DNA of 64,000 nt. Origin: Leuctra nigra. Lineage: Eukaryota > Arthropoda > Insecta > Plecoptera > Leuctridae. Below, one piece after another: positions 11,600-60,125 of the stretch. Every line of letters begins with the position of its first letter. Positions within the stretch are counted from its first letter, which is position 1. The stretch spans positions 31,809,345 to 31,873,344 of the forward strand of contig OW203769.1 of NCBI GenBank assembly GCA_934045905.1, given 5' to 3'. Under the pieces are notes generated by a model. It was not told the DNA's origin and searched no databases. It saw nothing but the letters and a program-made list of their open reading frames with translations. Both the position numbers and the translations under genes were made by a program.

Positions 11600-11690
11600 T
11601 TAGAGCGCCACGGCGCGTAGAATCACCATGCAGAGGGCGCTGAGGCCGGCGGCTATCGGCACGGTAACCACCCAGGCGTAGATGATGTTC
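11600..11690 (-). CDS. NaPi-III: transporter exon 13 (last coding)
   Basis: The acceptor is GATTGCAG. The exon completes the AGG codon begun in exon 12 and encodes [20 protein letters not shown] then MVILRAVAL and TAA. It forms the final transmembrane segment and a very short C-terminus. Confidence 0.93.
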
Positions 11691-14600: not shown

Positions 14601-17600
14601 GAATTCAGAACAGTTCAATGAAAATAATTCCATAGCTTGTAATGGTTTATTTGATTTACTTTGTCCTACAGGTGTTTAGAACCCGAAAATTTAGTAATTT
14701 TCGGGTTCTAAACACCTGTTGGACACAATAAAACTAATAGCTTATTCCAAACTATGAAATTATTTTCATTGAACTGTTCTGAATTCACGTCCATAGCCCT
14801 ATTTTGTTAACAATTACACTGGAAAAAGATATTGATAAAAATCGATTAAAAAACTCGTCAAGGCCACGCTCACTACCAAGCCCTCTTAACAGCGCATTGG
14901 TCTCGACTAGGGATTCATGATTCTGGATTCATGATGCAAGTATCAATTGTAGGTGATCAAAATCGCTGAAATTTCTAGTCAAAACACTTAAATAGTATTT
15001 CATTCTTGAAATTCAAAATCTTCTCGGGCTTGTGCAGCCCGGACCCGCATGTTGCTGGGGGATTCTCTTCCCCCCAAACCCCTTAATGGTGCTGTGAGCA
15101 GAGTGTTTTCAACGAAATATTGTATTTGGGCGATTTCACAATTTTTACTAAAATTGGAGTTATCAAGGAGGAAGGTGGAGTGAGTTGGAGGCTGAGAGAC
15201 AGTGGGAGGACAGGACAAGGTGGAGGCAGTTTGTGGAACAATTGGAAGTGGAGGAAGAAGAAGACGAGGAGGAGATGCCAGGCGTGGCCAGCCGGTCTCC
15301 AGTAGTCCTGCGGCCCTAGTGTTGGTGGGAATACCCACCCCTGACCCATTGAATTAGAACTAGCGGATAGATTATTATTATTAAATTACCTTAGAGTGAG
15401 GACTTACTCCAAGATATTACTGTATTTTCAACATTGGTCGACTTTAATATCAAACATCTGGCAACCCTTCTAGCAGCTTTACCAATCTTTTGAAGCTGTG
15501 AGGAACTGTGATAAGTACTTGTTCCAATATAAATCAATCAACCCATCATATCAATCACCAAATGTTGATGTCGCGTAGTTTTGATCACTTTCATGCCTCT
15601 TTTTACCAGTTCTTTGCAACTATTTTATCCATCTTGGTTCTTGGGCCACTAGAGCAACCTGTTTTGGTAGTTAAGTAGAGTGGCAACCCTGTGATGTGAA
15701 CTAAGGATGGGCAGTGAGAAGGCTGTTGTTAGAAGAGAACCTTTCAGAATTTGCCTCTCGCTGAGGAAGTCTTCGAAAAACAACGTACATAATTCAAGTC
15801 AGTGACTTTGTGTAAGGCTTACAAGTCAATGAAATTAATATTGGACAAATATATTAGCGTCGTGATTTATTTTATATATTTTCTTTTATTATTTCCTCAT
15901 GAAAGTACTATCCCAGAAAAAACACTCCGTGTAAAAATACCAGCCAAGTCTCTTTAACTATAAAAAAAAATAGAAGAAATCTAAAAATTCAGCACTGAAA
16001 AGGAGTGATATCAAAAAAGGAGCCAAGTCAACGAATTTTCCAAATTTTAATCGTACCATTGAAATAAAAATATCAACCCCCGAGAAATACTTAAAAAAAG
16101 GACTTGGCGCATCGTTTTTTTAAAGACACTTTTCTATCCTAAAAGTATAGGAAGAACTCTACAAGTATATTTTCCTGAGTATATCACATTTATTATCGAC
16201 GAATCATACTACGTTTTAATATAACTAGTACTCTTACCTACTGGCAGTTTTGGTATTTTGTCAATATTCAGAGGAAATAAACGGATAAACGAATAACGAA
16301 TAAACGGAAGCGGCCTAGTCTATTCGTTATTGCCACTATTTCTAGGGTCATATTAATCAATCATACTTCTCAATATCGTGACTGAGGGAAATAGCGAAAG
16401 CGCTCATTACAAGAAGGCCGTCAATGAGATTTGTATAAGTGACTAGTGCACTGAGCCATGCTGCTCAAATAATTACTGACTAGATTTTTATCTAAAGTAA
16501 TACGTTATGTAATTTATGAATTTTTTTGGTATAAAATGTTAATTAATAGCAATTAATTACACGGCGAGAAGGTTCAAAGTATAATGCTGTAGTAGGTATG
16601 TTGATGTACCCACAAAACTATAGGTACCTACCAATCACAAACACAACTGTTCTGTATTTATTGCTTGTAAGACAATGCTATGTTTCTTTGCGTACTTATA
16701 TTTAAATTTAAAATATTTTACAGAATGTTCAATATTTAATTTGAAAGTTTTGTCCCAATTTTTCTAGGCATTTCTGAACTACGTAGTATGTGAGTGGCAT
16801 AAGCTTAAGAATAGAAAAATGTCTTTAAAAAAACGATGCGCCAAGTCCTTTTTTTAAGTATTTCTCGGGGGTTGATATTTTTATTTCAATGGTACGATTA
16901 AAATTTGGAAAATTCGTTGACTTGGCTCCTTTTTTGATATCACTCCTTTTCAGTGCTGAATTTTTAGATTTCTTCTATTTTTTTTATAGTTAAAGAGACT
17001 TGGCTGGTATTTTTACACGGAGTGTTTTTTCTGGGATATCACTTCTTTTGTTAGTTTATTCATACAGCTTGTAGCACATGTCCGAGCAGGGACTAATTTC
17101 TTTAAAAAAATACGCCTCAACCGATTTAGTTACTATGAAAAGTTGCGTTTGGTATAAGATGAAAATGATTATCCAAGAAGAATAGCTTAAGTTTCGTTAT
17201 AATCGATCCAGCCGTTTTCGATACATGACGTCACTTCCGGTTTTGAAATAGCGGCCGAATTCCGGTATAGGTAATAAGAAAACAATCTAGTTTTATCTAG
17301 TTGATACCTTCATGAACGACCATCTGAATTCCTAATCCCTATATTTCCGTAAAATCGGTCATGCCGTTTGTAATATATGACGTCACTTCCGGTTTCATTT
17401 AGTGGTTCCTGCCGCCATTTCCGGTACCATTAATTTATTTATTCATTTTTCACAATTGATTTTTCAAATAAATAGCAGAATGAATACGCAGGAGCTAGTT
17501 CAGTTGCAATCGGTACAGGCGTTTTAGATATATGACGTCACTTCCGGTTTCAGGAATGGCGGCCGAGAACACTGCTACCTTGAATATATAAATTGTATTG

Positions 17601-20600
17601 TCTATGTTACAATGTAAGTTAATTATGTACGTATTTTAAGTATAATTTGTTGAAATAAGTTAAATATTGCGTATTTATGACGTCACTTCCGGTTAAGAAA
17701 ATAAGAAAATAATATTTTTTTTATTGATACTTCCTATAGATGACCATCTAAATCGAATGGCGCTAATTTCGTTCTAATCGGTCCAGACGTTTTTGAGTTA
17801 TGACGTCACTTCCGGTTTAAAAATGGCGGCACAAAAAATCACAAGAGGCAAGGTATCATCAGACGCCAAAAGTGCATATGTGGTAAAAGTTTCAGGTCGA
17901 TCGGTTTAGCCGTTTAGGCTGTGGCGCTGTCAACAGGGTTTCCTGATATCATCAGAATCATCTTCAAAATCAGAAAGTGGTGTAATTTCACTGTTTTCTC
18001 GGTCCTCTAGCGCGCAAATGGCATAACCTATTGTTCCCAAATTTGGTATATGTAGTGGGGTGGGCCATAGCTCGAAATTAAGACATTTCACAACAATGTG
18101 AGATTTTCCAATTTTAAGATCCAGTAGGCCGAAAATGCCATGTTGTTGCTTACAGTAAAAGTGTTTGGTCTGCTCCTCAGTTTATTAGGCATTTACGGTA
18201 TGTTGAGTGACTGTGAGTGTATAGTACGACTTGGCTGGGTGGAGCGACCGCTCCACTAGATATGTACTTGGTTTGAGTGCAACTCACGTGGAGGCTGTGA
18301 TCTTGGTGAGGTCCTCGCCGATGGTCTTCATGACGCGGCGCCCCCAGATCCAGAGCCCCACGGAGATGCCGAGACCCCCGTAGAGGAGGATGTAGATGGG
18401 CGTCTCGGACACCTGTTGCACGGAGCCCTCCTGGTAGATCAGCCTGCAGACACATCAACAGTCAGACCACACCGCTTGGCTGGCACGTACATCTCATCGG
18501 GTCAACTTTATTCACTTTCATGGTGATACCGCGTGTTGCAGGCACTTGTTTGGATACGATTGGAGACGAAATGATTTAAAATTTTAATCATGATTAGATA
18601 AAAGACAAACTTAGGTTTATCACTTGGTACATTTTTAATGTTTTGTTTTGTTAATTGGTAATATAGTTGTTTTTTGTGAACATTTCTCCATTTTCTTGGC
18701 TCATCTTTCTTGGGTCATCTTTCTTGGGATCATCCCACCCCCTGACCCGACAATAGTTGGAAGCAGGGTCGCGATATTTATTATTTCTTGGCTCGCTGCG
18801 TGTTGTATGAAATTGAATTTTAAAAATGTGCCAAGTGATAACCGAAAGTAGGTATGTCTCTTATCTAATCATGATTTAAATTTGAGATCAATTGGTTATG
18901 AGGGCTTGGTAGTGAGCGTGGCCTTGACGAGTTTTTTAATCGATTTTTATCAATATCTTTTTCCAGTGTAATTGTTAACAAAATAGGGCTATAGACGTGA
19001 ATTCAGAAAAGGTCAATGAAAATAATTTCATAGTTTGGAATAAGCTATTAGTTTTATTGTGTCCAACAGGTGTTTAGAACCCGAAAATTACTAAATTTTC
19101 GGGTTCTAAACACCTGTAGGACAAAGTATATCTAATAAACAATTACAAGCTATGGAATTATTTTCATTGAACTGTTCTGAATTCACGTCCATAGCCCTAT
19201 TTTGTTAACAATTACACTGGAAAAAGATATTGATAAAATCGATTAAAAAACTCTTCAAGGTCAAACTCACTACCAAGCCCTCTTAACGGGTTTAGTCGCC
19301 AATCCTATCGCAAATTTTATAGTTTTGCGTTGTTTATGCTGAATAACCGGAGGTGCGAAGCAAAAATGAAAAAGTGCTACTATATACAATAAGACTGATC
19401 ATGTGAACATCCTATCAACGTACACCGACTTATTAAACAATTTTTCTCTCTCAATTTTCTAAAATGGCCGAGAGCTTGTATCACCTTAAAAGTCTACATT
19501 AGACAAAATAGTCGATTCTACAGCATGTACATACGGGTTTGTTTATTTATTTGGACAGCTTTTCCGATTGTCTTCAAAATTTTAATGTTTGTAGATAAAT
19601 AGTAAATGCATGGCTCTGTTGACACAATTGTTTATTTTGTTTGTGATCGTGGCAGTGGTGCCAAAATGCCAAACATCACTCCTACTTAGCACCTCTGCAC
19701 CGAGCAACATTTTCTTTTGATTTACTCTTTATATCTTTAGTAAAGTTTTGCAACATGAAAGCTAGGTAAAGGAATCAACCTACATTGCAAAACAGAAGGA
19801 GAAAAAAATATAAATAATTAATTCCACTGAACATTTCACTAATACTCCATTTTATTGAGATCTCAATATTTCTTATATGAGGCTCCTCATATGTAGGCTC
19901 CTCTTTATCTTTTGTAAAACATTATTTGTATTTGTATTCTCTGGAAGAAGCCTCCTGAATAGTGCAGAAATATTGAGATTTCTAGTGAAACATTCAGAGG
20001 AAATATATTGGTTATTTATTAACACAAATCCAAACTTATAATCGAGAAACGAGCATAAAATGTGGATATGTATTTGTAGACAAATATGTTATTTGTTGAG
20101 TGATCACTTAAACTATAAATCCATAAATAAATAATGTATCAAAAGAAATCAAAAGAATTCTGAAAATTGTGCACAAATTCTGTGGTATGTTTAAAGCAAG
20201 TTTGTAAGAAGAAAGCTGCCCATTACATCAACACGAAACATTTACAATTACATTCGAGCAGCCACAGAGAATGATTCTCTGTTCAGAAATGAATGGATTG
20301 TCTCGTTTGAATCTGCGGCTGTTCAGTGATCGACATGCTCACCAGATGGCGATGAGCGGTCCGATGGCGTTGGACACGTCGTTGCCGCCGTGCGCGAACG
20401 AGCCGAACGTCGCCGTCAGGATCTGCAGGAACGAGAACAGCTTGACGACCTCCGGGGGATCGTCTCGGAGGTCCCCTCCGGTGCCGGGGCCGACCTCAAG
20501 GTCGCGCGACTGCAAAGTAAACAGTCATGAATACACCAAGTCGGGGAGGAAAATGCAGGGGTTCTGATCATACGGGCAAGTCATCTTTTCGTTTAGAGAG

Positions 20601-22264
20601 AATTGCGACTACCAAGTAAAGTACCTACCAACTCTTGACCTGTATTTTACACTGTAGTACAATACAGTACAACTATATAAATTTAATTAATGCTCTCATA
20701 GTATGCAGGTGAACAGGAATAGAAATTTTCTTAAGGCCGGTCTTAGAGCGAAATACAAAATATAAATTGCCATATTTGGCAAACGGATATGAATATCAAA
20801 AAAGCAAGCCAGAGGTTACATAACATGTATTGAACCTTTATCTACATTTTCATCGCTTACTGTCATAATTTTGCTCCTACTATGTGGTCAGCATTAGTCA
20901 GGCACGAAAACGCTCCGTCACTCTTCCGTCGCTCACACGGAGAGTTTTCGTGCCCGACAAATGCTGACCACATACAGTCCGTGTCACACGGAGTTGTCCG
21001 CCAGACTTGGCCCCTAATGTTGCAAATAACCGTTTTTTGTACATCCCTCAGTCGCTGTGAGCGATCGCGAGGTCTTCCGAGGCCACCTCTCTCTCTCGGA
21101 CAAGAGGTATTCAAAATATCTTAGCGGACAATTCCGTGTGACACGGACTGTAGTAGGAGCAATTCCACATTATCTAGTGTCATGACTACACTGATGGTTG
21201 ACTTACCGTGGTGGTCCTCTCTTTGACGAGCGGCACGGCACTGCTGTTGGGCGACAGACCTGAAACAAGAGCCTCGTCAGCCCGGCATCCCGCTGCCCGC
21301 ATCACACCACTCACGTGCACGTGACTCACCCAGCGCCGGTGTCACGTTGCCCGACAACACGTGCTCGTGGATCTGGACGTCTTGCTTCAGCGTCGCGTTC
21401 TCCTGGAACATGGCACAACACTGTGTTGTAGCTGCGATACGTGGCTAGGTGGCTACTGGCAGTCGACAGAATTAAGCTGAGTGCAAGCGCGCGCGATTTT
21501 GCCACTTGTTGCAGCCACTTTTTTTGGATACGATTGGAGGCAAAATGGGTTGACAAAGTTAATTAGTAATAATACGTTGATTTTTTATGAAAAATTATCA
21601 TTTTTCTTGTCTCGCTGGGTGCCGTGTGAAATTTAATTATAAAAATGTGCCAAGTGACAACCCTAAGTTTGTATTTTATCTAATCATGATTAAAATTTGA
21701 GATAAATTGGTTAATGGATTTGGTCTCCAATCGTAACGGAAATTTCATAGTTTTGCGCAGTTTTGTTGAATAACTGGCGCCTAATTAACAAGCAAAAAGC
21801 AAAATGAAAAAGTGCTACTAATATACAATCAGACTGATCATGTGAACATCCTGTCAAAGCTACACGCACTTATGAAACTATTTTTCTCTCTCAATTTGTT
21901 AAAACGGTCGAGCGCTAGTATCACCTTAAAACCTATGTGTTTTACATGGATCCACTTCCAATGAAATGTTACATGTGTAATACGAGGCGACTCACTTTGT
22001 TGGAGTTGTTAAGCGCCGTCTCGGCCTGCAGATATCCGTTGGCCTTGATGCCGTTGCCGTTTGCGTTGGGAAACATGTACGTCTGTCCGTTGCCCAGAGG
22101 CTGCAGCGTGATCTCGGACTTCTCGTTGGCCTCGGTGATCAGCGGCATGCTTCGAGTCTTCACCTCCATCGCGGAGAGCGCCCGCAACGCCCGAGGGCTG
22201 CCTTCGCGCGACGATTCTACGCAACACTACGAGGTCAGCGGGGGGTCGCTTCAAACAGGTGGGT

Positions 22265-22298
<34 letters not shown>

Positions 22299-25200
22299 GT
22301 GTGGGATAGCTTTTGTTCTTTACTTCAAATAAATCAAATATGATTGGTAGTTTCACAACATAAATTATACAAAGTCAATATTTTTGGCTTAGTTTTGAAA
22401 ATTAAATTTATTGTGGACGGATATTTCGACAGGATTTGCACTGTCTTTCTTTGGGACAATAATGTTGGTCAGCATTATCGACCCCAAGGATGTCAAAACA
22501 TCGCTTCTAAATAAATTACATTTCCACGGCTAATCCATTAAAGTGCTGTTTATATTAAAACTTATCTCCTTAAAATTTAATAAACAATATGAATACATAA
22601 TTCAGCTCAGAATAAAACAATGCATTTAAAAATTAATAACGAGATTTGCAATAATATCTATTTTAGTAAATTTGGAGCCAACACCAATTATCAAAAGCGA
22701 AAGGCATAATTAAGAGGTTTGTAAATGCAGGGATGAATCAAGATATGACGTGAGATTACAAGAACTTGCTTCACTCAGTCAACACTAGGGTTGTCGTTTA
22801 ATATCGCTGTATTCATAATACGTCTGATTTTATATTAAAACAATTCTACTTAATATATTATCAAAAAACATTGCCTCTTCATAAGGAACATGTTATATTT
22901 GTTATTTTATCTTTAATTTTCAATAGTAAAAAGACAGGAACCGACAGTAATTTTCTGAATAATGCTCAATTAGTCAGGCTGTAATTCATACAAAATATAT
23001 TTTAAAATCTCATTCCTCGTGATCAAAAATTCCAGTTGATTATCAATAAGTTCAAATTAGTTTGGAAATGTTTTTTATTATCGTTGAGAAAACTAATATC
23101 CAACGACAACCCCATTATATCTATTCACAAGTCTAGAACAAATCAAGCCGGAACGACCACTGAAATCCGGAGCCCTGTGAAATCTGCGCAGACAACAATA
23201 AGTTAATCGTCGATCCGGGCTGTTAGTCGACCAAGGGCTGAAATGTCCTCCACTAATGCGGGTGGGAGGAGGGGGGGAGGGTGCAAAGAGGGCGCCCAAC
23301 CGTTGCATGCGGGGCCCAAGAAGCTGGCATGCATGACCATTCACACAGCACCCTTTCGTGTCCATCCAAGTACACACAGTTAGTGGGGAGCCGGATTATA
23401 TTATTTACTTCCCGAGCCAGATGTATCGTTTTAAATGAATGTACAGACAGATAAACCCTCTTACATGGCAAAATGCCATCTGTCGGGCTAATGGCAGACA
23501 GAAGATTGAAAGCAGATGGCAAGAGTTTACGTCCCAACGACTTTTGGACAAGTTTTGTGATCAAAATTTAATAGTTTTGTTTCGTCTGAGTTTCACTTTA
23601 ATTAATTCCAAATTTGTATGTAGTATTTTATTTACGTGTTGTTGTCGCTTGCAATTATTTAGTTGGTAGGTAAAAATAAAGGTATTATTAAGAACTTAGA
23701 AGCATTTTTACAAAACTGTGGAGATTTTTGACAATACCTATAATTCAATATTGTTTGGGACCAATTGTTGGGATTTTAAAGAACTTAACAAAAATAATCA
23801 ATATAGGTACCTTAATATTAAAAAACTAAATCATACTAACAATAACAAAAAATATGATTCTGGCCATATTATCAGAAAAGTAGGCCATTTCAAGTATGGC
23901 TTTAAAACAATTTATATGAACAGAAAATAAAGTCAGAAGAATTAATATGAATTTTAGTCACCAACCAGAATAGTTATTAATTAGTAAGAGCATTTAATTA
24001 ATAAATACAAATCATAATGAAAATAGCTTATTATTTAAACTTAGATCATTTTCTCAACATTTACCTGTGGAATCACCAAATGAGAAATTCACGGCACTCT
24101 TTTCCTTATCTTTTTGCATGAACTCTGTAACACACAAGTGAATTGCCGTGGCAGGGTAAGAAGCGTCAAGAATACAGGAGATCGGTCAGTGGGACACGTT
24201 TCAACATGACGGCTAGGCAAAGCCCCTGGTTTCATGTTAGAGGCATACGAGATGAAGATCATACAGTCGCCTTCCACGATCAAGGTGCAGGTAAACGAAA
24301 TAGTACACAAATTCCCATAATAATTCAACAACTGAAAATGAGTTGACTTGTTTTGTATTTCAACTTGCTGCACTGCAATATGACAAATATCTCAGTTACA
24401 GGGCAAATTGTTTTTGCATGAGGAGATTTCTAATGTTGTTTGCATAAATTAATACAAAGTAAAAATTAGCAAGATCCGTAAGTTTTGATTTCAATAAAAA
24501 TTTGCTAACACTTTTTAAATTTTGAAACATTTAAAATTTTAAATGTATCTTTATATATTAGAAACTTGCATTGATTATTGATAAATTTTATGGGATTTTC
24601 ATGTATAAATAATAATTTAAGTCAATCATTATAATTCAATGACATAATCCATGATTACCTAATAACTGCCTTGATTTTGGAAGATGACTTAGCTCATCTA
24701 ATTGTGTTTCCGTCAAACAATGTCCGATAAAGATTTCATTTCACTTCAATAATAAGACTAAACTTTATAGAAGTAATGAAAGGTGAGGAAACATTCTAAT
24801 ATTCGGAACAATGTCTTCGAAACCACAATCACGACAATGAGTAGTGATTTTACCCCTTTCGATTTTAAAGTACCAATAGCTACAAATATCCAATTGTAAC
24901 ATTAGACCAAGATACTTTCAATGACAATTATTTATACCAAGGGATTAGTTTTCTCCATGCATTACTCAAACAGTTTACATAAATTATCAAAATTACGTAA
25001 AATCACATTTCTTCTCTTTTACGTCAGTTTGAAAACATTCATTTGATACAAAGAGTCCTTGTTCCAAATATATGCTGGCTTCATTACAGAAATCAAGTTA
25101 CTATTATATTTAGTCAGCCTTGACCATTCTTTTAATAGTTCTGATACAGGGTAGTTGATGTAAATGAAGAAAGCAAGGCTGGGCCAAGGTCTCTTTGCTC

Positions 25201-28200
25201 TCACGTGATGAGTGGCAATCACGTTGTCCCGTGTGAAACCACGTGAACACAAGTCGGCTTGCGAGAACAGAAGGCACGCGTTTCATCACGTGTTCAACTC
25301 AAAAGAAATGTCACATACTTGGTAATGGAGAGAATCACCAATATACTGGATGATACGTAGAGATTTAAAAGAAATGAGCACAAATTAATTAATTTTAAAT
25401 TTATGTACACCGAAGCTCAGAAAATTAGCATGCATCTTATGAGAGAAATGCACATTTTTGTATTTGTACGTTTACATAGTGATATACCTAGTTAATAAGA
25501 AAACATCCAATGTTGATTTAAAGAACAGCAAAGCGGCATTCACATAGTTAAGCTCAAATTGTGGAGAGCGTTTGACGAATCACAATCCCGCCCCAGCACA
25601 TAGAGTCAGCGGAGGATATTTTCAGATCCTCGCAGAAAATCAACAATTTAGAATTTACAGATTCTCTCATCCAATAGAAAGCTTGAACTGATTGTAAATA
25701 AGAGGTGGTGAACGCGTGCCTGCTCGTGAAGGGATATCTGTGAAGTTGGCAACACTCACCGAGGCACTGGCTGCGCTGGTACGGTACCAACACGAACTGC
25801 ACCAAGAGCATCACAATGGCGCCAACCGCGAGGCTGATGAGAAGAGCGCCCCACCATGGCAGTCGGTCAAAGTATAGCACTGGGGAGTGAAAACACAAAG
25901 TCTTAGTTGCTGATCAGACTTGAGAGCGTTACCAACCGAGCTATCCGGTCATTAGACACAACGCACTGATGAGGGTTTGAGATCTTACAGGAGAATGGAA
26001 TGAAGGTTGTGAATATTGTCAAACCAAACAAGGGTAATGATCATTATACTATCATATCTTATTGCAAAACCACATTTACTGAAGTTGAATATCCTGAGTA
26101 ATCTTATTTGTATTCACAATATTACCAAAAAGTTAATTTCCCTCCTTCAATTTGAATGTTGTCATAACAATACAAATGTTGAACAGTAAAAACAGTAGTT
26201 GTACAGTTTAAATCTGTTCAGTGGAATGTATAACTTTTGTACATTTTTACTAGGAATGTTTTAACAAACGGTAATTGAATCAATAAAATATTGTCAGACC
26301 CAGTGTTAGGGAGGGAACTTTTAAAAAGAATGCGTTACTTTTTTTGCGAACTTTTGAGCGAACGCGTTCTTTTTTGTATACAAAGAACGTGAACGTGAAA
26401 CGTTCGTTTTAACCACGAACGTTTCGATCAAGTCCGCTCTTTCCTACTGAGCACTAAGCAGTCAAATCGGAATAAAGTCCGAGCCGATTCGAAGATTTCC
26501 GAAGTTTCTTTAACTCTGAGCGTGGATTGGTTACTATGGCGAGGGTAGTTTGAGGCAGGTGTGGAAGGGGAAGTAGGGGCCCCTCTTAGATTTTTCCCAG
26601 TTCCATTTAAGTTTCACGCGGCTCGCACCTGCTTTTGTTTGTTGCCTTGATAATTTCAGTTTTTCGTTTGGGACGATGCGTTTATAGGGACATAACCTAG
26701 GTATATAGTTAATTTTTTTTAGAAAAGAACATTTAAATAACTTATATTCGTTTTTTTAAGGAACATGAACTTTTAATACACATGCTTAAAATAAAGAACT
26801 TGATCTTTTAAAAAGTTCATATATTTGGACGTGAACTGAACTTTTAAAAAGATCGTTTTAAAAAGGAACTTCCCCAACACGGGTCAGACCACTGGTGGCA
26901 ATGATCATTGCAAAATGATTTTAATGATGGAATAAAATATTACACCAAAATAAACCAGCTACTATTTCTCTTGTAATAAAGAAAACATCGATTCTTTATC
27001 CCACAGCTCATCAGAAAGGTACACACAACAAAAGATTCGAAAGAAACGGATTGGCTGAAAAAGATTTTATGGCATCCGAATCCGATGAAGTCCTGCTAAT
27101 GTAATGTCATCTAACTCATCATCTAACTAACTCTTTTAGGTGAGCTCTGATTTATTGATAATAAAAAGGATTGATTGTCAAGGAACCTGACCAGCAGCCA
27201 ATTCTTCAATCCGTTTCGTTCAAATACCGTTTTATGATTTGTTAAGTGCACTTTGGGTTTGTAATCACAGCATTCCTTATTTCCGATGCAATCCACCATC
27301 GCACGCCTCAGAGAGTACATACTCACACTTGGGCCCGTTGTGCACGATGGAGAAGACGTTGATGATGATCGTGATGCCGTAGAAGAAGGGAAGCGCTCGC
27401 AGGCCGGGCACCAGCGGGGTCGGCGAGTCGAGGATGAAGCGCCGGATCAGCTTGTAGAGGAGCACCGACATCGCGCCGGACAGAAGCGGAGACACGAACC
27501 ACGACGAGACTGCGCACGAAAACAAAACGCGATATCAGAACATGAGCACACTTGTCTACCACAGAATTTGCAGCAGCGAAAAAACTGTTTTCTGTTTGGA
27601 ATTCCAATTTTCCACTCCTATTTTGGCTATTTTTCTGGCACTACCTCTTCCTCCCACCATAACAATAGAGGAGCAAGGAAACCCCCCACTTCTTAGGTGT
27701 ATACAGCATTTTATTAGCGTTTTTGTTTTGGCATTTGCCCTCAGGCACTGAAAGGTCCCTTTCAAATGATAGTATAAAGGCCGGTATTACCAAAGTTTAT
27801 GCTACAGCTAGTAGGTAGTTAGTAATCGGAGCAAAATAGGCATGTGTTAAATAAATACATCACCACTGCACTGCATTTTGAACTCATAAAAATAACTAAA
27901 TATAATAATTAATAAACTTGCTCTTTCCCTACAATCTGAATAATTACGTGTAAAATATGAAACAATTTTGTGGTTGCAAGTATAATTTTGGTCAGACTTG
28001 GGTAAATTACTTTTAAAAAGTAATGAAATTACGTTACAAATTACATGGGTTAAAATGTAGTAAAATTACTTTACCGTTACCAATATTAAGAAGTAATGAA
28101 ATTACTTTACATTTCATGAAAAATAGTAACGAAATTACTTTGAAATTTTCCGTGATTTCCGAAATGTACACAACACATAATAATAAAAATGGCGCCTATC

Positions 28201-34200: not shown

Positions 34201-37200
34201 AGTACGATGTGAAGACGGTACTCACTGATGGTGCCCAGCATGTACCAGTCGAGGCCGGCGTTTCCCCGCGACACCAGCGAGAAGCCGATGGTGGCGCCCA
34301 CGATGCTGTGCGTCCCCGAGATCGGAAGCTTGAAGAACGTCGCCACCATCAGCCAGATGGCACTGCCGGCTGCAAGCAACAACACACTCTTTATTAGCTG
34401 TTCAATGCGGATAGAACATTTTGTTGTCGGGAGTTACATGTTCCCAATGTTCCACAGAAATAATATTACTTTGTTGATTGATGTTAAGAAATATTAATAC
34501 AATTTCATGAAAGAGTACGATTCTGAAAATTGATTCTTTTTATTTTCACTAGATTCTTTAATATCTAAAAGTAAAATAATATATTACAATAATAGATAGA
34601 AGGTCAAGGTCATTAAGAAACAATGAAATGTCAAGTTAAACATTTTTATGAGTATGAACTTTTACAATCTGAATATTCCAATACAGAACAAAATAGTAAT
34701 AATTTTGAATCTTTCATACAAAGAAATCTAAAGCAAATGATGACAGGATTGGCTCAGAAATGACTGCATACTCCACAAGACATGCAAAAGCTAAGCTAGC
34801 GAGTGTAAGCAATGAACTCACCTAGCGCTGAGAGACTGCCGAGCATCAGCTCCTTCTCCGCGTTCTCATACATATCCAGGTTCAGCACTCGCTTGCGCAT
34901 CGTGTCCGACACCTAGTAGCCTGTAAGCAATGAACTCACCTAGCGCTGAGAGACTGCCGAGCATCAGCTCCTTCTCCGCGTTCTCATACATATCCAGGTT
35001 CAGCACTCCCTTGCGCATCGTGTCCGACACCTTGTAGCCTGCAAGCAATGAACTCACCTAGCGCTGAGAGACTGCCGAGCATCAACTCCTTCTCCGCGTT
35101 CTCATTCATATCCAGGTTCAGCACTCCCTTGCGCATCGTGTCCGACACATAGTAGCCTGTAAGCAATGAACTCACCTAGCGCTGAGAGACTGCCGAGCAT
35201 CAGCTCCTTCTCCGCGTTCTCATACATATCCAGGTTCAGCACTCGCTTGCGCATCGTGTCCGACACCTAGTAGCCTGTAAGCAATGAACTCACCTAGCGC
35301 TGAGAGACTGCCGAGCATCAGCTCCTTCTCCGCGTTCTCATACATATCCAGGTTCAGCACTCCCTTGCGCATCGTGTCCGACACCTTGTAGCCTGCAAGC
35401 AATGAACTCACCTAGCGCTGAGAGACTGCCGAGCATCAACTCCTTCTCCGCGTTCTCATACATATCCAGGTTCAGCACTCCCTTGCGCATCGTGTCCGAC
35501 ACCTAGTAGCCTGTAAGCAATGAACTCACCTAGCGCTGAGAGACTGCCGAGCATCAACTCCTTCTCCGCGTTCTCATTCATATCCAGGTTCAGCACTCCC
35601 TTGCGCATCGTGTCCGACACCTAGTAGCCTGTAAGCAATGAACTCACCTAGCGCTGAGAGACTGCCGAGCATCAGCTCCTTCTCCGCGTTCTCATACATA
35701 TCCAGGTTCAGCACTCCCTTGCGCATCGTGTCCGACACCTAGTAGCCTGTAAGCAATGAACCCACCTAGCGCTGAGAGACTGCCGAGCATCAACTCCTTC
35801 TCCGCGTTCTCATACATATCCAGGTTCAGCACTCCCTTGCGCATCGTGTCCGACACCTTGTAGCCTGTAAGCAATGAACTCACCTAGCGCTGAGAGACTG
35901 CCGAGCATCAGCTCCTTCTCCGCGTTCTCATACATATCCAGGTTCAGCACTCCCTTGCGCATCGTGTCCGACACCTAGTAGCCTGTAAGCAATGAACTCA
36001 CCTAGCGCTGAGAGACTGCCGAGCATCAGCTCCTTCTCCGCGTTCTCATACATATCCAGGTTCAGCACTCCCTTGCGCATCGTGTCCGACACCTAGTAGC
36101 CTGTAAGCAATGAACTCACCTAGCGCTGAGAGACTGCCGAGCATCAACTCCTTCTCCGCGTTCTCATACATATCCAGGTTCAGCACTCCCTTGCGCATCG
36201 TGTCCGACACCTAGTAGCCTGTAAGCAATGAACTCACCTAGCGCTGAGAGACTGCCGAGCATCAGCTCCTTCTCCGCGTTCTCATACATATCCAGGTTCA
36301 GCACTCCCTTGCGCATCGTGTCCGACACCTAGTAGCCTGTAAGCAATGAACTCACCTAGCGCTGAGAGACTGCCGAGCATCAACTCCTTCTCCGCGTTCT
36401 CATACATATCCAGGTTCAGCACTCCCTTGCGCATCGTGTCCGACACCTAGTAGCCTGTAAGCAATGAACTCACCTAGCGCTGAGAGACTGCCGAGCATCA
36501 ACTCCTTCTCCGCGTTCTCATACATATCCAGGTTCAGCACTCCCTTGCGCATCGTGTCCGACACCTAGTAGCCTGTAAGCAATGAACTCACCTAGCGCTG
36601 AGAGACTGCCGAGCATCAACTCCTTCTCCGCGTTCTCATACATATCCAGGTTCAGCACTCCCTTGCGCATCGTGTCCGACACCTAGTAGCCTGTAAGCAA
36701 TGAACTCACCTAGCGCTGAGAGACTGCCGAGCATCAGCTCCTTCTCCGCGTTCTCATACATATCCAGGTTCAGCACTCCCTTGCGCATCGTGTCCGACAC
36801 CTAGTAGCCTGTAAGCAATGAACTCACCTAGCGCTGAGAGACTGCCGAGCATCAACTCCTTCTCCGCGTTCTCATACATATCCAGGTTCAGCACTCCCTT
36901 GCGCATCGTGTCCGACACCTTGTAGCCTGCAAGCAACAAGTACGTGAAGATGAGTTCACGTATAGTCCTACATCAACTGGTACTATCCCAGCATTGAATC
37001 ACATATTCAAGAAAGAGCATCAGTCCATTTGTTGTGATTCAAAGAAAACAATGATAATCTGTCCTGGACTTATACGATTTCTTGCAAAATGTCGTAAATT
37101 AAGTGCGGATTTTAGCCATTAGGAGTACTGGGACTGACGCAATTTCTTGCTAAAATGTGTGTCTATATGCTAAGAGACGATTATTTTTTGGGGGTGGGCC

Positions 37201-40176
37201 AATACCTAACAATATAGTTTTTAGGTGAACAACCTTTACACATTGATTATGGACAACTTCACAGCATAATGTCTTTGAATGATTATAAGGACTATGAAGA
37301 AAGGATTATGTGGATGATGGAGGATTGCAATCAAGTCCCAACAGTTTCAACCTTTTAATATACCGAGTTTGAGTAACTTTTAGAAAAGAAGAAATTAATA
37401 TTAGTAATCGATGTTTAGGAAAAGAATAGAAATTCATTGTATAAAGCAGATGACTGCTTCACGGATGTGAGATGGGAAGGAGGGGGTCTCGGCCTATGGA
37501 CAGAACATGCGTGCGAGTGCAAGTCTGTGACCTTGACCCACACGTCTAGACCTGACAGCTGTGTAATTATAACTCATTAGTCAAGGCCTTGCAGGGTGGA
37601 GGAGCAGCATGCTTTGGGATGACATTTCCGGACAAATTGTAGACATTGGTTTTTAATGGATAATTAGTTATTTGTATTTGACACGAGGGGCATTCTCCTA
37701 GGCGTACAAGCCTGTCATCTCACTGATACATTCAACTGTCATTTAGCTATTAGGTGTTGATTCCACAATCAATAGGTACTCTTTTTTACAGATTAAAAAA
37801 TTATGTACAAAAAATATTTGGCATTAACTTGACATACTAACATAATATAATTCTCATTAAAAAGTTTATTTTAAATTAACTATGAGGCGAGACAAAACGG
37901 TTTTCTAATTTTACACAAAATTACATAAAAACAGCTGTCGTCCTGTCTCCAACGAATGTGAAAACTCATTCTAAAATGTACAAAATTCCGATTCCAATAA
38001 GTTTTCCCTTGCATGTGGTATAAATGCTGCTAAAAGCGCGATGGCTGATCTTCCCGCCCACCTGGTAGCGCTATGCCGGGAATCGGGATGGGGAATGACA
38101 TCAGATAAACTAAAAGACAGCTGGCAACATGTCAACGCCGAGCTGCTTCTGTGCCGAACACAAGGGTCAGTGACCCCGACACCGAGGTGCCAACACTAGC
38201 AGTCAGGGGCAGGAGAAACAAACAGGGGTGTGACATTTCGTAAAGCCACAATCAATTGCTACCATATTGGGGGATGAAGTGCTGAAAGGTGGTGAAAGGC
38301 GAACATACATCTATCTATAGTTGACAGAGGATGAGTGACCACACTTCCCAAACTTATCCACTTTCAAAAATTAGTTGTTTTCGAAAAACAATTCATACAT
38401 TAAAATCAAAATCATGTACTAGTCGCACATTTGATCTACGAGGAAGTCTGGTCTGTATATGAAGGGTTGGAGGGTTATCTATTTGTTGACACGCTTTGAC
38501 ATGGGCGGTAGTGGAGAGGGTGAAGAATGTGTTAGGTATTCCCAATTTATATTATTTGACCATGAAACACCCACACAAATGAAACAATTTAAATTACAAG
38601 TAAGGCTGCTTCAAGAAAGGAAGCTAATTAATAATTTCAAATATTATATTGGCAAATCTTTTCATTCAAAATCAGGGGGGGGGGGGAGTCTGTTATACTG
38701 TGACAATCTGTGACAGGGGGAGGGTGGACAATCGTGATGTCACGTTTCAGCAAAAAGAAATCACATTTATTATTCTCAACTGAGATTTGAATTTTCCCTC
38801 TTTTTAGGATAATACTTAGGGATGGAGCGAACCTGGATTTTGATATCGACTATCGATATCATTTATATATCGATATATCGATATCGCGATATATCGATAT
38901 ATTGAAATATTGAAATATCGAAATATCGATATATTGAAGTATCGATATATTGAAATATCGATATATTGAAATATTGAAATATCGAAATATCGATATATTG
39001 AAATATCGAAATATCGAAATATCGATATATTGAAATATCGAAATATTGAAATATCGAAATATCGATATATTGAAATATCGAAATATTGATATATGACAAT
39101 ATTATATTTCGATGTAGGTATGGAAATATTGATATATCGCATAAATGCCTTAAATTGCTCCTAAAAATGATAGGAAATTCAAAAGAAAATTTAAATAGAA
39201 ATAACACAGCCGTTCCAAAATATAGGGTCACCGGCCAGATAAGAAAGAAATGTGAATAATCTGAGAAATTGTTCTAAAATCTGATAAACGCTGCACTGCA
39301 AATATGAATTATTTTGCCATAGTAGGTATAAACTTCAATTAAGAATATAGTTGTATCATACGGTAAAGCTTCGATATATCGATATTTCAATATATCGATA
39401 TTTCAATATTTCGATATTTCGATATTTTAATATTTCAATATTTCGATATTTCGATATTTCGATATTTCGATATTTCGATATTTCGATATTTCAATATTTC
39501 AATATTTCAATATATCGATATTTCAATATTTCGATATATCGATATTTCAATATATCGATATTCAATATATTCAGGTATCGATATTTCGATATTTTTTTGA
39601 TATCGATATATATCGATATATCGATATTTTCTCCATCCCTAATAATACTACAAGTATTTAAGTATGTAGTAATATAATTCTACAAATGTTTTGGGTTTAA
39701 AATTTTGCAATAAATCATTAAAAAGTTTTGTGTTTTTTCATTCTTTCAATGTATTTTTTCTTTGCAATAAATCACTAACTATAGTGAAAATATGAATGCA
39801 AGTGTTTTTTGTGTGTGGGGGGGGGCAACCTTTAGGTGACATACTTTTTAGGGGGGAGGGGAGGGGGGTAAAAAGTTTGACAACTTGGGACAAGAGGGGG
39901 AGGGGGGGGGGGGGGTAAAAAAGTGGCCTATTTTGCGTGACATACTTTATGAACATTAGCGATGGCAACAAGTAACTCACCGATGAGCACTGCTCCCGCG
40001 ATCTCGAACACCGTCGCCAGGCAACACGCCTGCCGTATCGTCAGCACCTTGGAGCCGACGGACGTTCCGAACGAGTTGGCGACATCGTTGGCGCCGATGC
40101 CGAACGCCAAGACGAACGCCACCAGGAAGCCGACCACCACCAGCCACAGCAGATCCACGGAGAACGGATCGAGCAT
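11600..40176 (-). CDS. NaPi-III: SLC20/PiT-type sodium-dependent phosphate transporter (13 coding exons)
   Basis: Joining 13 GT-AG exons gives an unbroken 571-residue protein. SLC20 (PiT) proteins import phosphate with sodium across the plasma membrane and are built as two inverted half-repeats. The first half shows GANDVANS (residues 28-35, exon 1) and [13 protein letters not shown] (exon 3). The second shows [13 protein letters not shown] (motif at 424-431, exon 10) and [11 protein letters not shown] (exon 12). These paired motifs are diagnostic of the family. Exons 4-5 encode hydrophobic segments. Exons 6-9 (about residues 248-383) encode the polar cytosolic loop, which is shorter than in vertebrate PiT proteins. 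Exons 11-13 encode the last membrane segments, ending ILRAVAL. Introns 1-6 are all phase 1, so exons 2-6 are symmetrical. Exon 2 is amplified into an 18-copy array; the coding copy is taken as the one nearest exon 1. The first ATG (40176) starts directly before the first membrane segment. The Drosophila-style symbol is an orthology inference. Confidence 0.95.
12342..12522 (+). mobile_element. left end of a truncated hAT-like element
   Basis: CAGTGGTTCCCAAACTTTTT is a classic hAT left end. No matching right end is found before the minisatellite begins at about 12523, so the element is broken. A CTCTACATGTGTAGAG palindrome sits just before it. Confidence 0.45.
12523..14310. repeat. 43-bp minisatellite, split by a LINE
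   Basis: The unit reads TGAATGCTAGACAACAGGCT GGCAGCAACACTAGGCATTG TAG. About 8.6 units fill 12523-12894 and about 2.3 units fill 14212-14310. Units differ only at a C/T position (CAGGCTGG or CAGGTTGG) and a few other bases. The array lies in intron 12 and stops about 15 bases from the donor of exon 12 (14325). The LINE at 12895-14211 interrupts one unit. Confidence 0.9.
12895..14211 (+). mobile_element. 5'-truncated non-LTR retrotransposon with open RT frame
   Basis: A single open frame (12896-14074, 392 codons) carries reverse-transcriptase blocks in order: [14 protein letters not shown] (block A), [14 protein letters not shown] (block B) and [11 protein letters not shown] (catalytic YADD). 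A LINE-type C-terminal region with FKYLGMLLD and [14 protein letters not shown] follows. The 3' end is AATAAAG then a run of ATT units (14191-14211). The 4-bp word AGCA flanks both ends (12891-12894 and 14212-14215), so it inserted into a minisatellite unit. The endonuclease half is missing. The undamaged frame suggests a fairly recent insertion. The clade is probably within the Jockey/CR1/L2 group; this is not settled. It is antisense to the transporter. Confidence 0.9.
14326..14478 (-). CDS. NaPi-III: transporter exon 12
   Basis: A 153-nt exon between TTCTTGCAG and GTAAAT, phase 2 to 2. It encodes [19 protein letters not shown] then [18 protein letters not shown], the second-half PiT signature region. 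A minisatellite lies immediately beyond its donor. Confidence 0.95.
14502..14885. mobile_element. TTAA-flanked foldback MITE, family B copy 1
   Basis: The 384-bp palindrome starts GACGGCTTGGTAGTGAG and ends with the inverse (CTCACTACCAAGCCCTC). TTAA lies on both sides (14498-14501 and 14886-14889). Landmarks are TCAATATCTTTTTCCAGTGT and, at the centre, TTTTCGGGTTCTAAACACCT in both orientations. It sits 20 bases upstream of exon 12 on the minus strand, inside intron 11. Other copies are at 18900, 41691 and 60538. Confidence 0.8.
15161..15384 (+). mobile_element. probable 3' end of a decayed LINE
   Basis: A short open frame (15161-15319) encodes an acidic tail with [20 protein letters not shown] followed by [15 protein letters not shown]. 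It ends at TAG, and shortly after comes a run of ATT units. The [15 protein letters not shown] wording plus the ATT tail resemble LINE C-termini. The rest of the element is absent, so the call is weak. It lies in transporter intron 11. Confidence 0.35.
15911..17036. mobile_element. 1.1-kb element with 227-bp terminal inverted repeats
   Basis: The arms 15911-16138 and about 16811-17036 are almost perfect inverted copies. The outer ends are TCCCAGAAAAAACACTCCG and its inverse, with TA on both sides, so a Tc1/mariner-like TA target is possible. The 670-bp middle is AT-rich and non-coding. It lies in intron 11 of the transporter. The arms are too alike for an ancient insertion. Confidence 0.75.
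17080..17935 (+). repeat. five degenerate repeats, each with a TGACGTCA palindrome
   Basis: The line ATGACGTCACTTCCGGTT occurs at 17225, 17377, 17532, 17677 and 17799, spaced 122-155 bp. Each is preceded by a version of ATCGGTCCAGCCGTTTT and followed, in several units, by GGCGGC. TGACGTCA is the CREB/ATF consensus and ACTTCCGG is an ETS-type site. The units look like a decayed tandem array inside intron 11. Regulatory use is only a possibility. Confidence 0.6.
18288..18443 (-). CDS. NaPi-III: transporter exon 11
   Basis: A 156-nt exon between GTCTGCAG and GTGAGT, phase 2 to 2. It encodes [20 protein letters not shown] then [20 protein letters not shown]: a membrane segment and the basic loop typical of the second half of PiT proteins. 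Confidence 0.94.
18535..19487. mobile_element. MITE family A copy 2, split by a family B insertion
   Basis: The left part has GATACGATTGGAGACGAAAT and AATCATGATTAGATAAAAGA. The right part after 19287 has CGGGTTTAGTCGCCAATCC, TGATCATGTGAACATCC and CTCTCTCAATTTTCTAAAAT. Between them lies family B copy 2. Rejoined at one TTAA, the two parts read like uninterrupted copies at about 21720 and 43735. It lies in intron 10. Confidence 0.7.
18900..19282. mobile_element. foldback MITE family B copy 2, nested in family A
   Basis: A 383-bp palindrome starts GAGGGCTTGGTAGTGAGCG and ends with its inverse. The left flank is TTAT (18896-18899) and the right flank is TTAA (19283-19286), so one base of the duplication has changed. 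The insertion point in family A contains a single TTAA in other copies. Confidence 0.8.
20343..20509 (-). CDS. NaPi-III: transporter exon 10
   Basis: A 167-nt exon between TTTGCAG and GTGAGC, phase 0 to 2. It encodes the end of the cytosolic loop, then [17 protein letters not shown] and [18 protein letters not shown]. The latter is the C-terminal PiT signature thought to line the ion and phosphate path. Confidence 0.96.
20871..21162. mobile_element. foldback element carrying a nested TA-flanked hairpin
   Basis: The outer arms read TTGCTCCTACTA then CAGTCCGTGTCACACGGA, with an inverse ending TAGTAGGAGCAA at about 21162. The left arm is split by a 90-bp hairpin (20883-20972) that starts TGTGGTCAGCAT and ends ATGCTGACCACA, with TA on each side. 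Removing it restores perfect pairing of the outer arms across that junction. It lies in intron 9, about 45 bases from the donor of exon 9. Confidence 0.75.
21207..21259 (-). CDS. NaPi-III: transporter exon 9
   Basis: A 53-nt exon between TGTTTCAG and GTAAGT, phase 1 to 0, encoding [17 protein letters not shown]. It is part of the polar cytosolic loop. Intron 8, between exons 9 and 8, is only 70 bases. Confidence 0.9.
21330..21402 (-). CDS. NaPi-III: transporter exon 8
   Basis: A 73-nt exon between GTTCCAG and GTGAGT, phase 0 to 1. It encodes [20 protein letters not shown] then TPAL, part of the cytosolic loop. Confidence 0.92.
21481..21927. mobile_element. MITE family A, copy 3
   Basis: An uninterrupted copy in inverted orientation: GCAAGCGCGCGCGATTTTGC at the left, GATACGATTGGAGGC, TGATTAAAATTTGAGATAA, GGTTAATGGATTTGGTCTCC, then CTCTCTCAATTTGTTAAAAC and GGTCGAGCGCTAGTATCACC at the right. 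It lies in intron 7 of the transporter. Confidence 0.65.
21996..22216 (-). CDS. NaPi-III: transporter exon 7 (large cytosolic loop)
   Basis: A 221-nt exon between TTGCGTAG and GTGAGT, phase 1 to 0. It encodes a polar, low-conservation stretch beginning [20 protein letters not shown] and ending NNSNK. It is Ser-, Asn- and Gly-rich, as expected for the variable central loop of PiT proteins. Upstream on the minus strand the intron carries a long C run (22267-22295 as G on plus). Confidence 0.93.
22267..22295 (+). repeat. poly-G run in intron 6
   Basis: About 29 G with one adjacent AGGGG block, 50 bases upstream (minus sense) of the exon 7 acceptor. On the transcript it is a C run and may act as an unusual polypyrimidine tract. 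Confidence 0.85.
22330..24060. other. intron 6 of the transporter, no further feature
   Basis: AT-rich non-coding DNA. A slightly G-rich patch at 23260-23310 and isolated open frames are seen, but none has splice or codon support. Confidence 0.5.
24065..24124 (-). CDS. NaPi-III: transporter exon 6
   Basis: A 60-nt exon between GTGTTACAG and GTAAAT, phase 1 to 1, encoding [19 protein letters not shown]. It begins the polar cytosolic loop. Short and symmetrical, it could be skipped without a frameshift. Confidence 0.88.
25760..25879 (-). CDS. NaPi-III: transporter exon 5
   Basis: A 120-nt exon between CCCCAG and GTGAGT, phase 1 to 1. It encodes [20 protein letters not shown] then [19 protein letters not shown], a membrane segment ending in basic residues at the cytosolic face. 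Confidence 0.95.
26301..26882. mobile_element. non-autonomous hAT element with perfect 8-bp duplication
   Basis: It is flanked by GTCAGACC on both sides (26293-26300 and 26883-26890). The ends are CAGTGTTAGGGAGGGAAC and the near inverse CTTCCCCAACACGG. The subterminal regions are filled with GAACTTTTAAAAAG-type words and GAACG/CGTTC pairs. It is 582 bp with no transposase. It lies in intron 4 of the transporter. Confidence 0.85.
26985..27255. repeat. decayed copy of the 32237 MITE
   Basis: It shares CTTTTAGGTGAGCTCTGATT and ATTGATTGTCAAGGAACC with the element at 32237-32455. The terminal inverted repeats are eroded here. It ends about 70 bases from the donor of exon 4. Confidence 0.5.
27327..27509 (-). 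CDS. NaPi-III: transporter exon 4
   Basis: A 183-nt exon between GTGCGCAG and GTGAGT, phase 1 to 1. It encodes [20 protein letters not shown] then [20 protein letters not shown], followed by a membrane segment with [13 protein letters not shown]. SWFxSPLLSG is a strongly conserved PiT stretch. Confidence 0.96.
27993..28570. mobile_element. non-autonomous hAT element, GTAATG/ATTAC-rich
   Basis: It is flanked by ATTTTGGT on both sides (27985-27992 and 28571-28578). The ends are CAGACTTGGGTAAATTAC and an inverse ending CCCAAGACTG. Subterminal arrays of AAGTAATGAAATTAC and its inverse fill about 150 bp at each end. It is 578 bp, non-coding, in intron 3. Confidence 0.88.
28913..29100 (+). repeat. 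partial copy of repeat K
   Basis: GATCGAGCTGAAATTTTGCA and GAAATCCATTGGTTGGTTAA match the middle of repeat K (3660-4425). Neither terminus is present. Confidence 0.45.
29100..30810. other. intron 3 sequence without a supported feature
   Basis: AT-rich DNA with an 11-base G run near 29862. No exon, repeat family or RNA gene is convincing here. Confidence 0.45.
30811..30908 (-). repeat. tRNA-like hairpin repeat (possible SINE fragment)
   Basis: On the minus strand a perfect T-arm (CCGGG, TTCGAGC loop, CCCGG) sits inside a larger hairpin. The outer arms (AGGGATGTGCGTTGTGAAAAA and inverse TTTTTCACAACGACCATCCCT) are imperfect copies. The sequence after the T-arm ends in a T run on the minus strand, like a pol III terminator. 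No full cloverleaf forms. Confidence 0.45.
31423..31447 (+). repeat. poly-C run in intron 3
   Basis: About 25 C followed by CCACCACCCC. It is the reverse-complement equivalent of the G runs elsewhere in the window. Confidence 0.85.
32237..32455. mobile_element. 219-bp MITE with 29-bp terminal inverted repeats
   Basis: It starts GGTACACTCCCCCAAATAAT with AAACGGTAC, and the exact inverse ends it. The interior is non-coding and shares lines with decayed copies at 26985-27255 and 50700-50884. No clear duplication of the target is seen. It lies in intron 3 of the transporter. Confidence 0.75.
32822..33429 (+). mobile_element. LINE 3' fragment with C-terminal coding remnant
   Basis: An open frame ending at 33175 encodes a LINE C-terminal region ([20 protein letters not shown] then [15 protein letters not shown]). 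The wording fits the conserved end of many LINE ORF2 proteins. The 3' UTR has a hairpin (CTGGCAGCAGG with its inverse CCTGCTGCCAG at 33330-33385) and ends in an AATAAAT run. It belongs to a different family from the LINE at 12895. Confidence 0.7.
33779..33888. mobile_element. 110-bp MITE
   Basis: The ends are exact inverted copies of AGCCCGATTTACACGGCCA. The centre pairs TTGAACAACTTCC with TTGTTCAA. The flanks are TAA and TAG, so a 3-bp TWA-type duplication is possible but not perfect. It lies in intron 3 near exon 3. Confidence 0.65.
33930..34138. mobile_element. MITE family A, copy 4 (partial)
   Basis: ATTAAAATTTCAAATCATTT and GTCTCCAATCAAATCCAAAA then GCAGCAAAATCGCTTGC match the right half of family A. 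It ends about 90 bases from the donor of exon 3. Confidence 0.55.
34226..34369 (-). CDS. NaPi-III: transporter exon 3
   Basis: A 144-nt exon between TTGCTTGCAG and GTGAGT, phase 1 to 1. It encodes [20 protein letters not shown] then [30 protein letters not shown] is the first-half PiT motif. Its acceptor is preceded by GTTGTTGCTTGCAG, nearly the same string as before exon 2. Confidence 0.96.
34822..36926 (-). repeat. NaPi-III: 18-copy tandem array of transporter exon 2, period exactly 118 bp
   Basis: Each unit is the 99-nt exon 2 plus a 19-nt spacer (GTGAGTTCATTGCTTACAG or ...GCAG) made of a donor and an acceptor. Copies start every 118 bp from 34822 to 36828 with no indel. Reading [20 protein letters not shown], the codon before VSD is AAG (Lys) in copies 2, 5, 9 and 18 counted from the low coordinate, TAT in copy 3, and TAG stop in the other 13. 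Copies 1 and 4 share an extra G-to-R change (CGA for GGA). Copies 2 and 5 share the GCAG acceptor, so a three-unit block (1-3 and 4-6) was probably duplicated as well. The spacer is too short to be an intron. Copy 9 has GTGGGT in place of GTGAGT. The highest-coordinate copy (36828-36926) is the normal exon. Confidence 0.97.
36828..36926 (-). CDS. NaPi-III: transporter exon 2, the intact copy next to exon 1
   Basis: A 99-nt exon, phase 1 to 1, between CTTGTTGCTTGCAG and GTGAGT. It encodes [20 protein letters not shown] then [12 protein letters not shown], aligning with the loop and membrane stretch that follows the first PiT signature. It alone in the array has a real upstream intron, the intact Lys codon and a GCAG acceptor. 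It is therefore the likely spliced copy. Joining its donor to exon 3 would place the other 17 copies in a 2.5-kb intron. Confidence 0.9.
36950..38800. other. intron 1 of the transporter, right part
   Basis: Non-coding DNA with no repeat family that I can define. There is a G run (38676-38687) and a slightly GC-rich patch at 38040-38200. Confidence 0.45.
38817..39641. mobile_element. hAT element with ATCGATAT-type palindromic arrays, copy 1
   Basis: It is flanked by ATAATACT on both sides (38809-38816 and 39642-39649). The ends are TAGGGATGGAG and its inverse CTCCATCCCTA. About 250 bp at each end consist of repeated self-complementary words (ATCGATAT, AATATCG, TATTGAAAT), so the two arms also pair with each other. 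The core has ACACAGCCGTTCCAAAATAT. The whole is 825 bp, non-coding, in intron 1. A shorter copy is at 53519-53976. Confidence 0.9.
39981..40176 (-). CDS. NaPi-III: transporter exon 1 (start codon exon)
   Basis: The coding part runs from ATG at 40176 to a GTGAGT donor at 39980, ending in phase 1. It encodes [20 protein letters not shown] then [17 protein letters not shown] and [28 protein letters not shown] is the N-terminal PiT signature. Start choice: this is the first ATG in frame and directly precedes the first membrane segment; no longer frame is open upstream without stops. Confidence 0.93.
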
Positions 40177-47915: not shown

Positions 47916-47998
47916 TGTTTCCCACAGAGAATGACGATCACCGGGTTACAACCCCATGACTCATGAGGTCACGCGCAAGGAATGCAGTGCGCCGCATC

Positions 47999-48535
47999 TC
48001 TCAATCACTCTGCTGACGCAACAGTTGCGCGAAGAAGCTGGCTCCAGAGGCGACATGATCACTTCTTTCAATCACTGTGCTGACGCAACAGTTGCGCGAA
48101 GAAGCTGGCTCCAGAGGCGACATGATCACTTCTTTCAATCACTGTGCTGACGCAACAGTTGCGCGAAGAAGCTGGCTCCAGAGGCGACATGATCACTTCT
48201 TTCAATCACTGTGCTGACGCAACAGTTGCGCGAAGAAGCTGGCTCCATGAGGCGACATGATCACTTCTTTCAATCATTGTGCTGACGCAACAGTTGCGCG
48301 AAGAAGCTGGCTCCAGAGGCGACATGATCACTTCTTTCAATCACTGTGCTGACGCAACAGTTGCGCGAAGAAGCTGGCTCCAGAGGCGACATGATCACTT
48401 CTTTCAATCACTGTGCTGACGCAACAGTTGCGCGAAGAAGCTGGCTCCATGAGGCGACATGATCACTTCTTTCAATCATTGTGCTGACGCAACAGTTGCG
48501 CGAAGAAGCTGGCTCCAGAGGCGACATGATCAGCA
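47999..48535. repeat. 67-bp minisatellite, 8 units
   Basis: The unit reads TCAATCACTGTGCTGACGCA ACAGTTGCGCGAAGAAGCTG GCTCCAGAGGCGACATGATC ACTTCTT. Two units have TGAGG in place of GAGG and are 68 bp (ending near 48269 and 48471). They are followed by CAATCATTG, so a four-unit block appears duplicated. CGCAACAGTTGCG is an odd palindrome in every unit. Confidence 0.9.
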
Positions 48536-60081: not shown

Positions 60082-60125
60082 CGTCGCAGCGTCTTCGGCT
60101 TCGCAGGGTCTTCGGCTTCATTCAC

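Follow-up and report, generated by a model that had tools for sequence, protein, structure and literature searches.

Why should a working gene hold one of its exons in eighteen near-identical tandem copies, and which of them would the spliceosome use? The original prediction for this window (the whole stretch of 64,000 nucleotides that was analysed) offered, as one option for the extra copies, that 17 of them are fossils in an intron, and this agrees with our best reading: the array is probably a whole-exon minisatellite in intron 2 of a working PiT gene, with copy 1 used and copies 2–18 silent. An intronic repeat is the most likely reading, rather than a set of alternative exons, because 13 of the copies carry a stop and the intact ones spell a single peptide.

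The PiT Host Gene

The minus strand of the window carries an apparently complete SLC20/PiT sodium-phosphate transporter gene of 12 predicted exons, running from 40176 to 11600, whose exons, with their borders set from sequence alone, join in frame at GT/AG sites into a product of 551 aa that is open throughout. The parts of this gene model outside the array are the following.

39981..40176, minus strand: PiT exon 1, 196 nt, ending in phase 1 (in-frame model, PHO4 match over exons 1–3)
34226..34369, minus strand: PiT exon 3 (in-frame gene model)
11600..27509 (span), minus strand: PiT exons 4–12, joining in frame to the stop (gene model)

The 551-aa product aligns over its full length with insect PiT proteins, the best cockroach matches among the 120 listed having 67% and 68% identity, and by its homologs the host organism would be an insect. 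Joined exons 1–3 match Pfam PHO4 (PF01384) with an E-value of 7.9e-43, and this domain over a complete reading frame places the gene in SLC20/PiT. In the scan of separate PiT pieces, PHO4 was found in five of nine; the piece 27280-27534 gave 30.5 bits, under the curated 33.7, and the blank for the exon 12 piece is uninformative, given that it was in the wrong frame. Since the rest of the gene is open over 551 aa, it requires a functional exon 2, which copy 1 of the array can provide. If exon 2 were skipped, the frame would be kept and 33 residues lost, as computed.

Several other features of the window can be recorded here. The acceptors of exons 2 and 3 (36927-36939 and 34370-34382) are identical over 13 bases, TTGTTGCTTGCAG; the runner-up pair among the gene's 11 acceptors has 7 in common. 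Within PiT intron 11, a 43-bp minisatellite (12519-12894 and 14212-14313) begins about a dozen bases past the end of exon 11 (14326). A reverse transcriptase element interrupts it, with an RVT_1 open frame on the plus strand at 12878-14071, TTATTA repeats at its end and, among the 120 matches listed, a best one of 52% identity. Upstream of the gene, at 47997-48532, a 67-bp unit is repeated eight times with higher-order periods of 135 and 202 bp. Simple arrays of the ATATCGAA type occupy 38865-39103, 39370-39629 and 53545-53675, two of them within intron 1 in apparently opposite orientation. A 275-codon open frame on the minus strand at 59293-60117 encodes a Sina-type RING finger (PF21362, 4.3e-10), and a perfect 35-bp tandem repeat of 2.5 copies at 63913-64000 runs past the window end.

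Structure of the Exon 2 Array

Tandem Repeats Finder reports positions 34804-36936 as one array with a period of 118, 18.1 copies, 98% matches, 0% indels and a score of 4112, which rules out chance as its source. The 18 copies of exon 2 cut out from it on the minus strand measure 99 nt each and follow one another in 118-bp steps, the first at 36926-36828 and the last at 34920-34822. Together with the PHO4 match, this bears out the original prediction of an SLC20/PiT exon 2 repeated 18 times at an exact 118-bp period; its exon length of 99 nt and phase of 1-1 are confirmed by the in-frame joining of the 12 exons. The claim that each copy retains donor and acceptor also holds, because CAG ends the acceptor and GT starts the donor in 18/18 copies. 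The full donor is GTGAGT behind 17 of the 18 copies and GTGGGT behind copy 10, or 16 and one, respectively, of the 17 spacers. All 17 spacers are 19 nt long and consist of a donor followed immediately by an acceptor, whose end is TTGCTTACAG in 15 of them and TTGCTTGCAG in two (before copies 14 and 17).

The 118-bp units have a mean pairwise difference of 1.6%, with 8 variable columns and 10 distinct types among the 18. Copies 2–9 vary at one column only, the remaining variants being found in copy 1 and copies 10–18. Towards the distal end, copies 16–18 show 2, 0 and 1 base differences, respectively, from copies 13–15, and unit similarity at lag 3 lies above that of shuffled order (p 0.0008, the lag having been picked from eight after viewing the data). 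No second exon 2-like exon was found elsewhere in the 64-kb window, where the longest exact match is 11 nt, and a 31-nt pattern of the array gave 0 matches in IMG/VR, an uninformative result because it is expected for an insect gene.

An assembly artefact, with a true copy number of one or a few, is quite unlikely, given that the window contains no N and that 10 unit types in a non-random order appear unlike a simple assembly error. The array is a real and unusual structure, and its exact copy count may be off.

Reading Frame and Coding Content of the Copies

With exon 1 ending in phase 1, the frame of exon 2 reads G/GC TAC AAG GTG, and it is at the third codon, AAG, that the copies part ways.

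36828..36926, minus strand: exon 2 copy 1, frame intact, with the native acceptor of intron 1; presumed to be the working exon, from sequence and frame
34822..36808, minus strand: copies 2–18 of exon 2, 99 nt each 118 bp
35884..36808, minus strand: copies 2–9, all with TAG at codon 3; only exon base 72 varies
35766..35864, minus strand: copy 10, AAG, frame intact; donor GTGGGT after it
35412..35746, minus strand: copies 11–13, TAG at codon 3; copy 12 also Tyr18Asn
35294..35392, minus strand: copy 14, AAG, frame intact; acceptor TTGCTTGCAG
35176..35274, minus strand: copy 15, TAG and Gly11Arg
35058..35156, minus strand: copy 16, TAT (Lys3Tyr) and Tyr18Asn; no stop
34940..35038, minus strand: copy 17, AAG, frame intact; acceptor TTGCTTGCAG
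34822..34920, minus strand: copy 18, TAG and Gly11Arg; native intron 2 next

Thirteen of the 18 copies (2–9, 11–13, 15 and 18) read GGC-TAC-TAG, an in-frame stop at codon 3. The statement that each copy could on its own be spliced in without shifting the frame is thus correct but misleading, and the AAG/TAG difference, which had been put forward as a marker for telling copies apart, does exist, but its meaning in the reading frame, lysine or stop, had been missed. Copies 1, 10, 14 and 17 have AAG and, apart from a synonymous difference at base 72, the same exon sequence; they encode one identical peptide. Copy 16 has no stop but two missense changes. The residues affected are strongly conserved: among the 120 listed homologs, out of 6550 above threshold and not independent of one another (several are isoforms or near relatives), position 3 has Lys in 118 and Arg in the other 2, tyrosine 18 is present in 120/120 and glycine 11 in 119/120. 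One of the five exonic changes is synonymous, compared with 66/294 (22%) of the possible single-base changes, so the copies look free of protein-level selection, with the reservation that five events are few.

These facts bear directly on whether the array could be a Dscam-like cluster of mutually exclusive exons, making protein variants. In such clusters, the exons are diverged and free of stops, and the introns between them are of spliceable length. Like them, the array has exons of the same length and phase in tandem (18 × 99 nt, phase 1-1), with splice sites kept. Unlike them, its exons are mostly nonsense and the intact ones are protein-identical: it lacks two defining features of such clusters, namely open frames (13/18 have the stop) and different peptides (four of the five stop-free copies give the same peptide and the fifth has two changes at conserved residues). 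The spacers, moreover, are nearly identical, and there is no sign of selector-docker pairing among unbroken Watson-Crick matches: the unit pairs exactly with introns 1–2 in antisense over at most 10 nt, within the range of shuffled sequence (mean 8.8, maximum 13). With 13 stops, identical intact peptides and changes at conserved residues, the array could hardly give protein variety; mutually exclusive protein isoforms are therefore rejected on the reading frame, and we regard such a cluster as highly improbable.

That the four intact copies (1, 10, 14 and 17) serve interchangeably as working exons would be compatible with their identical peptides, since choosing among them leaves the protein unchanged. 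Such a choice would nevertheless have to pass over 13 copies that carry the stop but have identical or almost identical splice sites, and we consider it very unlikely.

Longer readings of the array were also rejected. Taken as one long retained exon, it meets a stop after residue 122, and the same occurs when copies 1 and 2 are retained together with their spacer, the only neighbour pair run. Neither strand has a long open frame across the array, with 32 to 35 stops in each of the six frames and a longest open run of 72 codons. Among the 120 listed homologs, none has the exon 2 peptide twice, except for the 928-aa protein P0001 of Clunio marinus, which contains two PiT units with one exon 2 peptide apiece and is probably two tandem genes annotated as one.

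Splicing Constraints and Proposed Silencing of the Copies

Spacers of 19 bp are too short for introns, and adjacent copies therefore cannot be joined, exactly as originally argued. The further claim that several copies, if used, must be mutually exclusive does not follow: between copies i and i+2 there are 137 nt, which leaves space for an intron, and exclusion over the whole array is thus not forced. Among the 6765 sets of non-adjacent copies, only 24 stay open (the empty set included and copy 16 counted as open).

This scarcity of open combinations is one point in favor of a poison-exon brake, where some transcripts would include one or more stop-bearing copies and be lost by nonsense-mediated decay, lowering PiT output. 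Inclusion would give a premature stop in 13/18 copies, all with splice sites preserved, and no unit is more frequent in the array than the one with the stop. The array acceptors nevertheless lie in a poor branch-point setting, and drift accounts for the pattern equally well, so that we hold the brake possible but unlikely. Its copy-number-tuned form, in which the repeat number would set the share of transcripts destroyed, is decidedly unlikely; if true, the unstable repeat would be a heritable dial on phosphate import.

The branch-point setting can be described in detail, taking YTNAY as the consensus rule. The acceptors of copies 2–18 overlap the preceding donor, each lying 19 nt behind one, and these donors are strong by consensus. 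Within -15 to -50 of the downstream acceptors, the sole YTNAY is at -44, in the previous exon copy and ahead of the donor, as scanned in 6 of the 17 acceptors, which jointly hold every variant of that stretch. This motif could be usable as a distant branch point. Copy 1 is the only copy with no exon-copy donor just before its acceptor, and it has branch-point-like motifs at -19, -25 and -47. In the native PiT acceptors, a YTNAY falls within -15 to -40 in 10/11, the exception being exon 7. Pyrimidine content does not help the silencing argument: the copies score 0.53 and copy 1 scores 0.65, but the native acceptors of exons 3, 6, 10 and 12 have the same 0.53.

For a whole-exon minisatellite with a single used copy, we thus propose that U1 bound to the strong donor 19 nt ahead would hinder use of the acceptors of copies 2–18, which may also be silent through the missing branch point in the usual range, and that the transcript would be spliced from exon 1 to copy 1 to exon 3. 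Against a silent array it can be said that the splice sites of copies 2–18 are well kept and that three intact copies exist besides copy 1; the silence of copies 2–18 is what splice-site geometry and reading frame together suggest.

Origin of the Array

The copies, their stops and their splice sites are directly visible in the DNA, and so are two matching words at the proposed breakpoints.

36927..36936, minus strand: TTGCTTGCAG, native exon 2 acceptor, proposed breakpoint (by sequence comparison)
34803..34812, minus strand: TTGCTTACAC, in intron 2, other proposed breakpoint, 8/10 bases as TTGCTTGCAG

The junctions suggest that the array began with a tandem duplication between TTGCTTGCAG and TTGCTTACAC, which copied exon 2 with both splice sites and the 19-bp spacer. 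Such a duplication would explain why the unit is exon-bounded, because the stretch between the two words takes in exon 2 with both its splice sites. Copy 18 is followed by native intron 2, in which the TTGCTTACAC word starts with the tenth base. Shuffled intron sequence yields a match of at least 8/10 about 1.1 times per 3487 nt, which makes a chance match exactly at the breakpoint unlikely. The word is not unique, given that three other sites in introns 1–2 match it in at least 8/10 bases (38618, 37334 and the exon 3 acceptor at 34379, the last in 10/10), and the breakpoint flanks agree in 10 of 19 bases.

In a second step, a copy freed from selection may have acquired TAG at codon 3, and unequal exchange or slippage would then have multiplied mainly this stop-bearing unit, the distal end arising as a repeated three-unit block. 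The combinations of acceptor and codon 3 suggest the order in which these two sites changed: copies 14 and 17 are G-type with AAG, copy 10 is A-type with AAG, and most others are A-type with TAG. Minisatellites growing at one end have near-uniform units, and the near-uniform copies 2–9 would fit such growth.

Comparison with Known Tandem Exons and Minisatellites

The closest parallel comes from amphioxus, in whose Adh3 and globin genes minisatellite-like copies called "mirages" span exon-intron boundaries, many of them with AG/GT; in BflGb6, the units measure 150-160 bp and number 6 and 3 in two haplotypes (PMC3087553). Their units are homogenised within a cluster and unstable in length, apparently leaving regular splicing undisturbed (PMC3087553). 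The Leuctra array agrees with the mirages described there in being a tandem repeat across an exon-intron boundary, its unit holding both boundaries of exon 2; in keeping AG/GT in its units (18/18 CAG and 18/18 GT); and in having homogenised units with differing edges (copies 2–9 versus copies 1 and 10–18). In contrast to those mirages, which are described with one boundary and part of an exon, it comprises a whole exon with both sites, in 18 copies, in an insect, and mostly with stops. By analogy, the array is best read as a whole-exon version of the amphioxus mirages (PMC3087553), and would be the same sort of structure carried further.

Other systems resemble it less closely. Mutually exclusive clusters, Dscam among them, have homologous exons in tandem that agree in length and phase (PMC6071210). 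Human segmental-duplication genes contain internal minisatellites, some at exon-intron boundaries, that alter gene structure (PMC2812944), with units of about 30 bp and about four copies on average, unlike the 118-bp × 18 array. In OGDH, joint splicing of the neighbouring duplicated exons 4a/4b is restricted by a branch point placed close to the upstream 5' splice site; both of these exons are functional and a real intron separates them, unlike in the array with its 19-nt spacers (PMC7969005). The tandem-repeat passages of the VCBP paper (PMC2632668) contain neither "mirage" nor "minisatellite". No whole-exon stop-bearing minisatellite appeared in the titles or abstract openings among the matches listed from open-licence papers, which is weak evidence of absence.

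Significance

Most likely, the array is a whole-exon minisatellite that is inert, and the geometry by which its copies may be silenced is of interest. It constitutes a natural test of the way in which the spliceosome selects a single exon from 18 near-identical ones, most of which would ruin the message. If copy 1 alone is used, position, together with the overlap of donor and acceptor within the 19-bp spacer, would suffice to keep 17 otherwise well-formed exons silent. Possibly, this is an early stage of a tandem exon array at which most copies are already dead, and such a stage may escape surveys built on open and diverged exons.
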